Source: Bacillota bacterium (lineage in GTDB: Bacteria > Bacillota > Clostridia > RUG12999). Taken from it: 32,084 nt of DNA. The notes under the pieces are model-generated. The model had not been told where the DNA came from, did no database searches, and was given only the letters and a program-made list of their open reading frames with translations. The translations under genes and the position numbers were made by a program. Shown piece after piece: positions 55 through 31,790 of the stretch (positions within the stretch are counted from its first letter, which is position 1; every line of letters begins with the position of its first letter). The stretch lies in the NCBI GenBank assembly GCA_030705675.1, contig JAUZPZ010000007.1:1-32084 (forward strand), given 5' to 3'.

Positions 55-154
55 GTTTTTTTTGACAATTCATCAAAAAGCACAAAATATTATGAATAAT
101 CAAAGGTAAATAATGCAAAACGGCGATTTTACTATTGCGAAAATCTTCGGCTTA

Positions 155-345
155 TGGTATAATAAACACATAAATGTGCTTATTATATTTTTTTAAAGCC
201 CGCGCGATTTTTTTCGTCTTGCGGCTTTTTCGCCTTGCGGCTGAGCCGCATGTTGCCGAAACGCACATGGGCAATTATACCAAAATTTTTACGAATTTAT
301 GGTATAATAAACACATAAATGTGCTTGTTATATTTTTTTAAATCC
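155..345. repeat. Hairpin repeat family, locus 1 (one full copy, one partial)
   Basis: Unit 1 runs from TGGTATAAT at 155 to ATTATACCA at 282, which are exact reverse complements. A second, decayed unit starts with TGGTATAAT at 300, 145 bp after the first, and becomes unrecognisable around 345-375. Each unit opens with a near-palindrome built on AATAAACACAT, followed by a GC-rich block containing GCGGCTGAGCCGC. Unit 1 carries an extra partial duplication of a TTGCGGC segment, which explains its greater length than the copies at 29375-29650. The same family recurs there. No coding potential is visible. It may be a MITE-like element or a structured RNA unit. Confidence 0.75.
300..308 (+). promoter_or_regulatory. 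Extended -10 box inside repeat, upstream of the dipeptidase
   Basis: TGGTATAAT at 300-308 is a full extended -10 match about 120 nt before the dipeptidase start. No good -35 is seen at 17 nt. The sister box at 155-163 does have TTGCGA 17 nt upstream. These are the only promoter-like sequences I see before the gene. Confidence 0.4.
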
Positions 346-427: not shown

Positions 428-1855
428 ATGGATAATATTATTTACAAAAAAGTAAAAAAGTATTTTGAAGATAATAAAAAGACAATAATAGACGAGCTGG
501 AAGAGCTTATAAAGATACCGAGTGTAAATAACCATGATAGCGAATATATATTTGGGACAGAGGTAAACAGAGCCCTTGAGGCGGGCGCTGCGCTTGCGGC
601 AAAATATGGGTTTGAGGCGAAGGTAAAAGGAAGCTATGCGATTGCACATTTTGGAAAGGGTAGTAAGAGCATAGGCTTGTTTGGACATTTGGATGTAGTA
701 CCCGCAAATGAAAAAGATTGGGTTTATACAAAGCCGTTTTTACCTTTTATAAATGACGGGTTTATTATAGGACGAGGGTCGGAAGATGACAAAGCCGCGA
801 TTGTCATTGGCTGTCATGTTGCCGCCGCCATTAGGGAGATCGGTATCTCGCTCGGCTCCGAGATTACTTTGTTTATGGGAGGAAACGAGGAGTGCGGAAT
901 GAGGGATATTGCCGATTTTGTGCAAAATGAAAAGATGCCGGATATTTCGATAATACCGGATAACGAATTTCCTGTATGTATAGGAGAGAAAGGAATATGC
1001 TGTATTACCGCAAAATGTCGTATGCCTTTTGAAAGTATACGCAGGATATACGGAGGAATGGCACATAATGTTGTATTGGGCGAGGTTGCGGCAGAACTGG
1101 ATTATGATGATATTACCGCTGCCGATTTGCTTGATGCTATAAATAAAACTAAAGACATAAAAGCGGAAGTAAACAAAGAAGGCATAAATGTAAAAGCGTT
1201 TGGGGTGTCTGCTCATGCGGCGTATCCGGAAAATTCTTTTAATGCAGGAATAAATCTTGCGGATTTGCTGTGCGGATTTAACCGTATAAGTGAGAACGAT
1301 AAAAAAATTCTCCGATTTATGCGCAGTGTTCAGGAAAGACCATACGGAGAGCCTTTTGGAATTGAATCCGAAGATGAGCATTTCGGAAAACTTACTGCGG
1401 TAAACGGTATTGTCCGTACGGAAAACGGACAGCTTGTCCTTTTGTTTGACATACGTTACGGAACGAGCGTGGAAAACGAAAAGATGCTGAAAAAAATAAT
1501 AAAAGTATTCGACGAAAATGGTTGGGATGTAAGAATTGACGAGGATGAAGAAGGATTTGAGCTTCCTTGTGACAGCGAAACGGTAAAGGCCTTTGAAAAT
1601 ATTTATAATGCTGTGTCGGGCGAGAAATTTGCCCGTGCGGACTATTCGGGCGGTGGAACATATGCCAGAAAACTGAAAAATGCGTACAGTGTCGGAACGA
1701 GCATTTATAACGGTGAGGGCGGAAATATGCCTGTAGGACACGGTGGGGCACATCAGTCGGATGAATGTATTTCCGTGGAAGGTATGCTTTTGGCGGCACA
1801 GGCTATAACCCTTATGGTGATTGAAGCGGACGAACAGTTAAATAAAGAGATATAA
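428..1855 (+). CDS. pepV: M20-family dipeptidase, PepV-like
   Basis: Predicted cytoplasmic zinc metallopeptidase of 475 residues that hydrolyses dipeptides, within the usual PepV/Sapep size range. Seen: the metal site HLDVVP near residue 85, GRGSEDDKAA about 30 residues later with the bridging aspartate, GNEECG holding the catalytic and metal glutamates, a PDNEFPVC segment, a lid/dimerisation domain with SAHAAYPE, and the terminal HGGAHQSDE carrying the last histidine ligand. All catalytic positions appear intact. The ATG at 428 follows GGGGGAAGAG; the track's start at 392 adds 12 residues with no ribosome site and is not preferred. The gene stands alone and its last codons lie inside a 32-bp tandem repeat. 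The exact substrate is not predictable; it could be an aminoacyl-histidine or general dipeptidase. Confidence 0.9.
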   Translation: MDNIIYKKVKKYFEDNKKTIIDELEELIKIPSVNNHDSEYIFGTEVNRALEAGAALAAKYGFEAKVKGSYAIAHFGKGSKSIGLFGHLDVVPANEKDWVYTKPFLPFINDGFIIGRGSEDDKAAIVIGCHVAAAIREIGISLGSEITLFMGGNEECGMRDIADFVQNEKMPDISIIPDNEFPVCIGEKGICCITAKCRMPFESIRRIYGGMAHNVVLGEVAAELDYDDITAADLLDAINKTKDIKAEVNKEGINVKAFGVSAHAAYPENSFNAGINLADLLCGFNRISENDKKILRFMRSVQERPYGEPFGIESEDEHFGKLTAVNGIVRTENGQLVLLFDIRYGTSVENEKMLKKIIKVFDENGWDVRIDEDEEGFELPCDSETVKAFENIYNAVSGEKFARADYSGGGTYARKLKNAYSVGTSIYNGEGGNMPVGHGGAHQSDECISVEGMLLAAQAITLMVIEADEQLNKEI

Positions 1856-29217: not shown

Positions 29218-29309
29218 ATAAGAAAAAGCCTTGAAACTACGCAGTTTTAAGGCTTTTGTGCATAAAAAAATAGCAAGCCAATGATACATTTGCTTGCTAT
29301 AATTATGGT
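29161..29309. repeat. Left copy of about 140-bp direct repeat
   Basis: From GAGGGTGCAAAT to ATTATGGT this matches 31579-31717 along its whole length with scattered differences and one deletion of about ten bases in the right copy. It includes a gene tail and two terminator-like hairpins. The last matching bases, TGGT, correspond in the right copy to the ACCA end of tRNA-Arg. Confidence 0.85.
29226..29256 (+). terminator. Terminator closing the ECF-PAP2-DedA operon
   Basis: AAGCCTTGAAAC pairs with GTTTTAAGGCTT (one wobble), followed by TTTGTG. No other plus-strand terminator lies between dedA and here. Confidence 0.65.
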
Positions 29310-29374
29310 TTGACTAGGTGTAGCAAGCTGTTGATACAAAATCACTAAAAATCCTTATAAAATCAGTGTTTACA

Positions 29375-29650
29375 TGATATAATAAACACGTAAACGTGTT
29401 TATTATATAGCTAAACGCATAGCGCCCGCGATTTTTTCGCCCTGCGGCTGAGCCGCTTGTGGTCGAAACGCAGATGCGCATAATTATATCATAACTTTGC
29501 AGTTATGATATAATAAACACATAAACGTGTTTATTATATAGCTAAACGCCATAGCGCCCGCAATTTTTTCGCCCTACGGCTGAGCCGCTTGTGGTCGAAA
29601 CGAAGATGCGCATAATTATATCATAACTTTGCAGTTATGATATAATAAAT
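29375..29650. repeat. Hairpin repeat family, locus 2 (two full units plus a start)
   Basis: Unit A is 29375-29491, unit B 29506-29623, and a third unit start lies at 29638; period 131-132 bp. Each unit begins TGATATAAT and ends ATTATATCA, exact reverse complements, and the linker TAACTTTGCAGTTA extends the inverted pairing to 14 bp. Unit A opens with a perfect palindrome, ATATAATAAACACGT-AA-ACGTGTTTATTATAT, which carries TATAAT on both strands. A GC-rich block with GCGGCTGAGCCGC and a CGAAACG segment follows. The units are homologous to those at 155-345. Confidence 0.85.
29638..29646 (+). promoter_or_regulatory. Extended -10 box at the end of the repeat array
   Basis: TGATATAAT lies 104 nt before the ABC-2 ATPase start, on the same strand. 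No good -35 is visible at the usual spacing. It is the best promoter candidate for the exporter genes. Confidence 0.4.
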
Positions 29651-29749
29651 GTATGTAATATGAGAATTTGTTATATAAAAAGTAGGCTAAAAAGTGAGTA
29701 GTTCTTCAATTATTATTCTTTTCTATTAAAAATGAAAGGGAGGAATCTT

Positions 29750-30472
29750 ATGAATTTTGTGGTAAAGGTCGAAAATATCAGTAAAAGTTACAGCAAAAGG
29801 GTTGTTTTAAATTCTGTAAATCTAAGCATTGAAAAAGGGCAAATATACGGTTTGATTGGTCCTTCTGGTGCTGGAAAAACAACTCTGGTTAAAATAATGG
29901 TTGGTATGGAAAAGGCTGATACGGGCATGATCTACGTATTAGATAAAAAAATGCCCAACCTGGAAATTTTACAAGACATAGGCTATATGGCCCAATCAGA
30001 TGCCCTGTATGATGAGTTGACAGGTGAAGAGAATCTCAAGTTCTTTGCTTCGTTGTTTAAATTAAATAAGACAGATCAAAAGACAAGAATTGCTTACGTA
30101 GCCGAACTGGTTAATTTAACCGGGGAACTTAAAAAGAAGGTATCAGCATATTCGGGTGGAATGAAACGCCGTTTATCACTTGCTGTAGCATTGATTCAAA
30201 ATCCAAGCGTGCTTATACTTGACGAACCGACTGTAGGAATTGACCCTGAATTAAGATTTAATATTTGGAATGAACTACATCGCTTAAGAGATAAAGAGAA
30301 AAAGACAATAATCGTTACAACACATGTTATGGATGAAGCAGCAAAATGTGATGTACTTGCAATGGTGAGAGATGGACATATCATAGCCAGCGGCACGCCT
30401 AAAACCCTGATAGAAACATATAATGTATCCAATTTAGAGGACGTATTTTTAAAGGCAGGGGGTAAACATTAA
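29750..30472 (+). CDS. ABC-2 exporter ATPase
   Basis: Cytoplasmic ATPase of 240 residues for the membrane partner that follows. It has Walker A GPSGAGKTT (about 37-45), the Q-loop near MAQSDALYDELTGEENL, signature YSGGMKRRLSLA, Walker B VLILDEPTVGIDP and the H-loop TTHVMDEA. This is the DRA/NatA-like type used for drug, antibiotic or lipid export. The ATG at 29750 follows GGGAGG by 7 nt; the track's extra six residues come from reading the ribosome site. Its stop overlaps the permease start by 1 nt. No regulator or two-component system is adjacent. Confidence 0.9.
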   Translation: MNFVVKVENISKSYSKRVVLNSVNLSIEKGQIYGLIGPSGAGKTTLVKIMVGMEKADTGMIYVLDKKMPNLEILQDIGYMAQSDALYDELTGEENLKFFASLFKLNKTDQKTRIAYVAELVNLTGELKKKVSAYSGGMKRRLSLAVALIQNPSVLILDEPTVGIDPELRFNIWNELHRLRDKEKKTIIVTTHVMDEAAKCDVLAMVRDGHIIASGTPKTLIETYNVSNLEDVFLKAGGKH

Positions 30473-31521
30473 TGAGAACAAAAGCATTGGTGAAAAGAAT
30501 AATTCAGCAGATGCTACGTGATAAGAGAACTCTGGGGCTTTTATTTGTTGCACCATTAATGATACTAACCCTTATGTATTTTTTATTTAACAGCAACACG
30601 GCTACAAACCTTAAAGTAGGTGTTATAAACGTTGATAAAACTATTGTTTCAGAACTGGAGAAAAACAGCATAACAGTAAAAGCATATAGTAACGCTTCAA
30701 ACGATACCATAGTCAATGATAAACTTGATGGACTGCTTCAAATGGAGAAGAATAAACTAATTTTAACCCTTCAAAATAATGACCCAACAGTATCCCAAAT
30801 GCTAAAGCTGAAGATAAATCAAACAATAGCATCCGTACTAACTCTAAAGTCCGGTGTTGCACCTCATGGACTTAAACCGCCGTCAATTGAAGTTAATTAC
30901 GTGTACGGTAACAGTGAAACTACATTTTTTGATATTTTCAGTACCATTTTAGTGGGCTTTTTTGTATTTTTCTTTGTTTTCCTTATTTCAGGAATCGGTC
31001 TGCTGCGTGAGAGGACAACCGGCACTCTGGAGCGTTTGATGTCAACCCCTATTAAAAGATGGGAAGTTATAACCGGTTATCTGATCGGATATGGTATATT
31101 TGCTGTTCTTCAAACACTTATAATAGTCACATATGCAATAAAAATCCTCAACCTTACACTTGTAGGTTCCATTTGGTACGTTTTACTTATTAATCTTATA
31201 GTGGCCTTTGTGGCATTATCGTTGGGAATTCTGCTATCTACTTTTGCAGCCTCTGAGTTTCAGATGATGCAATTTATACCTATTATAATAATTCCTCAGA
31301 TATTTTTTGCAGGAATATTCCCTGTTGAAAATATGGCAAAATGGTTGCAGGTTATTGCAAAAATCATGCCCATATATTATTGTGCAGATGCGTTAAAGAG
31401 TGTCATGTATAAGGGATTGGGCTTTAATGCAATTAAATGGGATATTCTCGTACTTGCGGTTTTTGCTGCAGTTTTTGTAATCTTAAATATTTTTGCCCTT
31501 AAAAAGTACCGGAAGTTATAG
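30472..31521 (+). CDS. ABC-2 exporter permease
   Basis: Membrane subunit of 349 residues. Segment 1 (about 20-40, LLFVAPLMILTLMYFLF) is followed by an external domain of about 120 residues and then five membrane segments from about 158 to 345, the pattern of ABC2_membrane_3 (YhgE/LinK-like and DrrB-like) permeases. The conserved LLRERTTGTLERLMSTPIKRWEVITGYLIGY loop, which couples to the ATPase, is intact. The start overlaps the ATPase stop and GGGGG lies 8 nt upstream. The substrate is unknown; antimicrobial peptide or lipid export would suit its neighbour, the envelope-stress operon. Confidence 0.88.
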   Translation: MRTKALVKRIIQQMLRDKRTLGLLFVAPLMILTLMYFLFNSNTATNLKVGVINVDKTIVSELEKNSITVKAYSNASNDTIVNDKLDGLLQMEKNKLILTLQNNDPTVSQMLKLKINQTIASVLTLKSGVAPHGLKPPSIEVNYVYGNSETTFFDIFSTILVGFFVFFFVFLISGIGLLRERTTGTLERLMSTPIKRWEVITGYLIGYGIFAVLQTLIIVTYAIKILNLTLVGSIWYVLLINLIVAFVALSLGILLSTFAASEFQMMQFIPIIIIPQIFFAGIFPVENMAKWLQVIAKIMPIYYCADALKSVMYKGLGFNAIKWDILVLAVFAAVFVILNIFALKKYRKL

Positions 31522-31630
31522 ATTTTACACTATACAGTTTCATTGTAGGAAGGATTTGATTTTTTTAATACCTGCTAGAGGGTGCAAATTAGAGCCTTCA
31601 AGCATTAATAATATAACCGTTAAATAAAAA

Positions 31631-31664
31631 AAGCTTTGAAACCACGCAGTTTCAAGGCTTTTGT
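31631..31664 (+). terminator. Terminator after the ABC-2 exporter genes
   Basis: Stem AAGCTTTGAAAC/GTTTCAAGGCTT with one wobble and a short TTTT tail. Confidence 0.65.
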
Positions 31665-31668
31665 GCAT

Positions 31669-31707
31669 AATAAAAAAATAGCAAGCCAATAATACAATGG
31701 CTTGCTA
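31669..31707 (-). terminator. Terminator of tRNA-Arg
   Basis: TAGCAAGCCA/TGGCTTGCTA 10-bp stem; on the minus strand it is followed by a T-rich run, 6 nt past the tRNA. Confidence 0.85.
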
Positions 31708-31713
31708 TAATTA

Positions 31714-31790
31714 TGGTGCGCCAGAAGGGATTCGAACCCCCGGCCTTTTGGTTCGTAGCCAAACACTCTATCCAGCTGAGCTACTGGCGC
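31714..31790 (-). tRNA. tRNA-Arg (anticodon ACG)
   Basis: A 77-nt gene with encoded CCA. Acceptor GCGCCAG pairs with CTGGCGC, discriminator A. The anticodon stem TTTGG/CCAAA encloses CTACGAA, giving ACG. D-arm GCTC/GAGT and T-loop TTCGAAT are normal. Its 3' end is shared with the direct repeat. Confidence 0.97.

Follow-up and report, generated by a model that had tools for sequence, protein, structure and literature searches.

A dispersed three-hairpin repeat of Clostridia at promoter −10 boxes, matched in sequence to its target

Among described repeats, the Correia elements (CREE) of Neisseria come nearest in effect to the element reported here: they are likewise small, non-autonomous and often upstream of genes, and the −10 that closes them can be joined to a native −35 (PMC2649163). 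Our subject is a repeat with two loci in a 32,084-nt stretch of a Bacillota bacterium of the class Clostridia (assembly GCA_030705675.1, contig JAUZPZ010000007.1, positions 1 to 32,084; hereafter the window), which we describe, with high confidence, as a mobile unit that stands at −10 boxes and is matched to its target. CREE insert at TA (or CA) and a minority of them form promoters, only 15 potential Snyder promoters being listed in FA1090, whereas nearly every copy of our repeat lies at a pre-existing −10 box, its arms match that box and it has three hairpins. Its termini are TGNTATAAT and its site is the −10 box, instead of the TATAG[CT]GGATTAA termini and TA insertion of CREE. Below, G000 is the genome of the window itself, and g3 stands for three species (G005, G007 and G008) of another genus of the same family.

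A second likeness is to the IS200/IS605 group. IS608 inserts in one orientation 3′ of a short left-flank target, which is base-paired with an internal guide beside a hairpin (PMC5934647). Our repeat also has hairpin ends and is inserted 3′ of a matched target in one orientation; unlike these elements, it matches about 9 nt rather than 4, its target recurs at the right end, and no Y1 transposase accompanies it in g3 or G145. It works like IS200/IS605 and is not a member of the group. The resemblance to IS110/bridge-RNA elements, where base pairing of an element-encoded sequence with the target sets target choice (PMC11208160), is looser: it would lie in base-paired target choice, and here no recombinase gene is found within the element. 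Imperfect palindromic ends, variable centres and differing units set head to tail at a short core are shared with integron attC cassettes; here, however, a promoter −10 box serves as the core, none of the cassettes seen contains a gene and no integrase scores above cut-off. Dispersed intergenic palindromes are also typical of repetitive extragenic palindromes (REP) and bacterial interspersed mosaic elements (BIME), but the gene here that resembles a REP-associated transposase (RAYT) is flanked by a different repeat, GGCACGTCCCCATGACACC. Our literature search, outside which most subscription journals lay, found nothing equivalent for a repeat with such an insertion site, and a review of prokaryotic miniature inverted-repeat transposable elements (MITEs) does not mention TATAAT as an insertion site.

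A dispersed three-hairpin repeat family

The two loci of the window, 155-308 and 29375-29646, are copies of one repeat family with common cores, in keeping with the shared layout and sequence pointed out by an earlier, sequence-only reading. The arms of locus 1 are TGGTATAAT at 155-163 and ATTATACCA at 274-282; those of locus 2 are TGATATAAT at 29375-29383 and ATTATATCA at 29483-29491 and, one unit further, 29506-29514 and 29615-29623. Locus 2 consists of two units with a common middle TGATATAAT, and locus 1 of one unit plus the beginning of a second. The earlier description was correct as far as it went; it overlooked that every unit has three hairpins, that the left TGNTATAAT serves a host promoter as its −10 box and that a second TGNTATAAT ends the last hairpin. 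Across the family, the unit measures about 120-160 bp, with hairpin 1 (hp1, TATAATA-variable-TATTATA), a GC-rich centre and hairpin 2 (hp2, ATTATANCA-variable-TGNTATAAT) in this order. Since the right end is a hairpin closing with another TGNTATAAT, the ends are both direct and inverted repeats, and since the right end supplies this second box, units can lie head to tail. Folding of a single unit by chance is excluded (z = −7.1 for RNA and −7.9 for DNA; none of 200 shuffled sequences folded equally well).

A search of G000 with one locus returned 37 matched pieces on about 20 contigs, so that many dispersed copies exist, and a covariance model built from 15 units matched 19 places in this genome and 28-31 in each g3 species; two strong matches came from G015, of a different family, and a broader sample of 291 genomes from the class contained 29 with matches. 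The dispersed copies in G000 and the 29 matching genomes exclude a segmental duplication limited to two loci. The order of parts is identical in copies from several other families, which have the centre and hairpins in common, and the weakest class-wide matches, such as that in G133, deviate at the left end. Weak matches at L291 (G133), L066/L175 (G017) and L065/L174 (G003) have the same centre and another left end, followed by TTTGTGCCGRCGCRRRGYGRCGGAATGGAG; they are possibly a sister family with another target. No exact match to the pattern occurred in viral contigs, and carriage by phage was dropped as a candidate.

The pairing is conserved family-wide: across 94 aligned members, double changes occur at 31 of 35 pairs and 96% of cells pair, with a covariation score of 0.427, compared with 0.124 for shuffled and at most 0.054 for slid structures, a score that leans towards structure because the alignment was fitted to the model. 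Rfam gave no structured-RNA family match for the repeat, its matches in the window being two tRNAs only. The end of contig C167 (L011) and the start of C193 (L007) of G000 have nearly identical flanks, but 34 nt at the tip of the central hairpin are missing from the C167 unit; the two are probably one locus in two strains of the assembly, that is, natural variation of the centre.

Empty sites and the match to the host −10 box

We queried the joined flanks of copies in sister species and found empty orthologous sites for 17 copies, 16 of which already have a −10-like hexamer at the junction. The g3 comparison contributed ten copies with empty sites, nine with such a hexamer (for example G005:C39:18407, G007:C49:12502, G005:C101, G005:C1:51560 and 73930, G007:C49:15841, and G007:C71:19907 with G008:C251), and the G145 genus contributed seven, all at a −10-like box. 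The insert starts directly after TATAAT and closes with another TATAAT, whereupon host sequence resumes; a check for target duplication finds TATAAT on both sides, and the base ahead of it agrees with the target in some copies but with the element in other copies. The own-genus search for G000 copies gave coding-flank matches only. Near-identical copies stand at unrelated genes, and the units are short, non-coding and dispersed and have empty sites, as MITEs do. These comparisons of filled and empty sequences show that copies move or spread, and they support the mobile unit that the sequence-only reading had listed as a candidate.

An immobile structured regulatory 5′-leader RNA conserved at promoters would fit the strong paired changes and the position between promoter and gene, yet it is largely refuted by the empty orthologous sites and the near-identical copies at unrelated genes; moreover, hp1 shows paired changes even in its 5′ arm, which takes in the −10 box and precedes the expected start. 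Together with the lack of an Rfam match, this leaves the leader RNA very improbable. Because the mobile element lies between promoter and gene, it should, to judge from its position, become the structured 5′ leader of the downstream gene.

Nearly all first units have a −35-like hexamer ahead of their left-end TGNTATAAT: among 64 independent left flanks, the distance from TTG to TATAAT is exactly 17 nt in 31, where about 1.3 are expected per position, and 16-18 nt in 41. As to the opposite orientation, no complete tabulated copy has a right flank beginning with ATTATANCA; in the truncated copy L016, the right end faces a −35. At 26-54 of the window, on the minus strand, an unoccupied promoter (TTGCAA, 17 nt, TGGTATAAT) has the exact target layout and no hairpin element behind it.

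The variable base N of the host-box TGNTATAAT agrees with both the inner and the outer hp2 arm, reading TGG/TGG/TGG in 28 copies and TGA/TGA/TGA in 6. For the whole host-box 9-mer and both hp2 arms, the observed match was not reached in 20,000 within-genome permutations of 73 unique single copies, nor in 5,000 without G145, and was reached in 8 of 5,000 without G145 and g3. TGTTATAAT is the site of five near-identical T-type copies in G145, and each of their empty sites reads TGT in at least one relative, with other bases in further relatives at 2 of the 5; A-type copies have TGA in relatives in both testable cases. The match therefore predates insertion at least in part, which argues for target choice and not for later repair alone.

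In some copies, the pairing of hp1 continues beyond the −10 box into the host flank: over 10 nt in G008:C119:5299, over 9 nt in G008:C154 and over 5 nt in G007:C59. The total for unique flanks, 38, is higher than in any of 5,000 permutations (mean 13.9, maximum 33). In the orthologous copies G005:C52 and G007:C46, both hp1 arms are altered jointly in the −10 hexamer (TATAAT to TATCAT), which selection on a transcript explains poorly since this arm precedes the point where transcription is expected to start. The flank pairing looks as if it had been written by fold-back copying, and template switching is documented to create, correct and maintain perfect stems (PMC8794818). The co-varying ends with preserved pairing of the sequence-only reading are thus real, and prove to be a three-way match of the host −10 box with both hp2 arms. 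Its proposal that covariation reflects selection acting on the inverted structure, or its copying, was only half right, as the G/A switch also tracks the host box; this tracking and the hp1 pairing into host flank speak for target matching combined with fold-back copying, and against RNA selection as the sole cause.

Candidate routes of movement

The explanation that we favor, with moderate confidence, is a non-autonomous element that recognizes −10 boxes by sequence match and is moved by a predicted enzyme acting in trans. The host −10 box, probably in single-stranded form, would be recognized through its base pairing or short homology with the ATTATANCA of the element's hairpin arm; the predicted enzyme would handle the folded ends and the conserved central hairpin, and template switching at hairpins during replication would then correct or extend the arms, which may be the origin of their paired changes. 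More tentatively, the element may be guide-directed and address the promoter through a transcript or single strand complementary to the −10 box, a putative recombinase inserting it into the open −10 region. If so, different units could be stacked as cassettes behind a promoter acting like a landing site.

At G007:C71, three TGGTATAAT repeats behind one promoter enclose, one after the other, an unrelated segment of about 160 bp and one unit, and the G005 ortholog of this array is a bare promoter with a single TGGTATAAT. Other repeats (GAAAGGGGGAC...; AGGAGGTTCCTCGTCGGGA...) are found at identical −10 sites in sister species. Given these unrelated cassettes and other repeats at the same boxes, the −10 box behaves as a shared landing site. 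Modular repeats of g3 (GAAAGGGGGAC..., TTCCAAGAAGGGATTC..., AGGAGGTTCCTCGTCGGGANACGACTCGG...) at these −10 boxes form mosaics with our family (L220, L221, L219, L213, L104, L117 and L167).

The main rival, which we hold to be rather unlikely, dispenses with an enzyme: during replication, a nascent strand would leave the −10 box, copy a resident unit from left box to right box and return, switching templates between identical 9-nt TGNTATAAT boxes. Such switching, known to create and maintain perfect stems (PMC8794818), would account for the fixed orientation, the clean junctions, the target-base match and the tandem units, as well as for unrelated cassettes between identical boxes and hairpin arms copied from the flank. 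It leaves the conservation of the central hairpin across families unexplained, however; copying of about 130 bp anchored by 9 nt at each end would be unusually frequent, and some target boxes differ from the box of the element.

The right arms bear on another candidate, a classical MITE derived from a DDE insertion sequence, which would have terminal repeats and TGNTATAAT as its 9-bp target duplication. The inverted TGNTATAAT/ATTATANCA ends agree with such an origin, as do G007:C49:12502 and G000:C192, where the right arm has the unusual TGC of the left side and the inner arm does not (the empty site of the former reads TGC too). In G005:C101 and G007:C49:15841, on the other hand, the right arm is of element type, unlike the verified target; inner arms likewise agree with the target, orientation at the promoter is single, and no coding relative occurs among the fetched loci, all of which makes a classical MITE improbable.

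Equally improbable is an IS200/IS605-like or REP-like unit whose Y1 (HUH) transposase inserts single-stranded DNA 3′ of a guide-matched target. The fixed orientation and hairpin ends follow an IS608-like logic (PMC5934647), but no Y1 domain occurs in G005, G007, G008, G145 or the G145 sisters, and the Y1 protein of G000 is RAYT-like with its own, different repeat. The latter observation also led us to reject mobilization by RAYT/REP, and a BIME-like nature, raised by the sequence-only reading, finds no support. The RAYT-like gene of G000 (L046, contig C159, 948-1715, minus strand) encodes 255 aa and has copies of GGCACGTCCCCATGACACC nearby; comparable genes in the relatives G020, G017 and G006 are accompanied by GGGGACGGTTCTGTGTC-type repeats, and this is a repeat system apart from our family.

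Several results weigh against the target-matching element moved in trans. Besides Y1, an IS110 protein is absent (no PF01548 match in the copy-rich family f1 genomes G000, G005, G007 and G008), no integron integrase exceeds the cut-off in any of 21 genomes, and the fetched loci include no coding, autonomous version of the element; the absence of Y1, IS110 and integron integrases favors an enzyme of another kind acting in trans. The match is not absolute, TGC or TGT targets occurring with G-type elements, and the empty site of G008:C137 is a non-promoter site between two genes. Furthermore, 92 of 188 other TGNTATAAT sites in the fetched DNA likewise have TTG at 16-18 nt; because about half of these sites have a −35 too, recognition of the promoter is inseparable from recognition of the 9-mer, and we dropped the −35 result as proof of the former. 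All genomes compared are assemblies of limited quality.

The window loci and the meaning of the family

The features of both loci are collected in Table 1. Two terminator-like inverted repeats (AAAAGCCTTGAAAC..., ATAGCAAGCCAAT...), paired twice at 29223-29310 and 31628-31717, bracket the ABC transporter genes (29732-31521), and a 32-nt repeat, AGAGATATAAACARTRTGTARYAATRC, stands in three tandem copies at 1846-1945, directly after the M20 peptidase gene.

Table 1. Positions of repeat parts, promoter hexamers and downstream genes in the window
Feature	Position	Strand	Remark
Host −35 hexamer TTGCGA (locus 1)	135..140	+	17 nt spacing to −10 box
Extended −10 box TGGTATAAT, left element boundary (locus 1)	155..163	+	Boundary supported by empty sites of homologous copies
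hp1 (locus 1), −10 box within 5′ arm	158..187	+	
GC-rich central hairpin, tip GCGGCTGAGCCGC (locus 1)	198..272	+	
hp2 (locus 1), ATTATACCA ... TGGTATAAT, right end of unit 1	274..308	+	
Start of truncated second unit (locus 1): hp1 303-332, then beginning of centre	300..345	+	
M20 family peptidase gene, downstream of locus 1	428..1855	+	
Weak −35-like hexamer TTATAA (locus 2)	29355..29360	+	17 nt spacing to −10 box
−10 box TGATATAAT, left boundary of unit 1 (locus 2)	29375..29383	+	
hp1, unit 1 (locus 2)	29378..29407	+	
Central hairpin, unit 1 (locus 2)	29422..29479	+	
hp2, unit 1 (locus 2), ATTATATCA ... TGATATAAT	29483..29514	+	Right arm doubles as left boundary of unit 2
hp1, unit 2 (locus 2)	29509..29538	+	
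Central hairpin, unit 2 (locus 2)	29554..29611	+	Repeat family D2, offset 132
hp2, unit 2 (locus 2), terminal TGATATAAT	29615..29646	+	
ABC transporter ATPase gene, downstream of locus 2	29732..30472	+	

For small bacterial repeats, the sequence is usually known and the way of selecting a site is not, and target choice by a match between a promoter and the element's own hairpin ends is unusual. Since target matching and fold-back copying can yield paired changes in hairpins, such changes alone are no proof of a functional RNA. The filled and empty sites reveal an element, present in many gut Clostridia, that settles at −10 boxes of working promoters and matches their sequence, which makes the recognition of the target testable. 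The elements are predicted to become structured leaders of many genes, and the family points to an enzyme with matched targeting.
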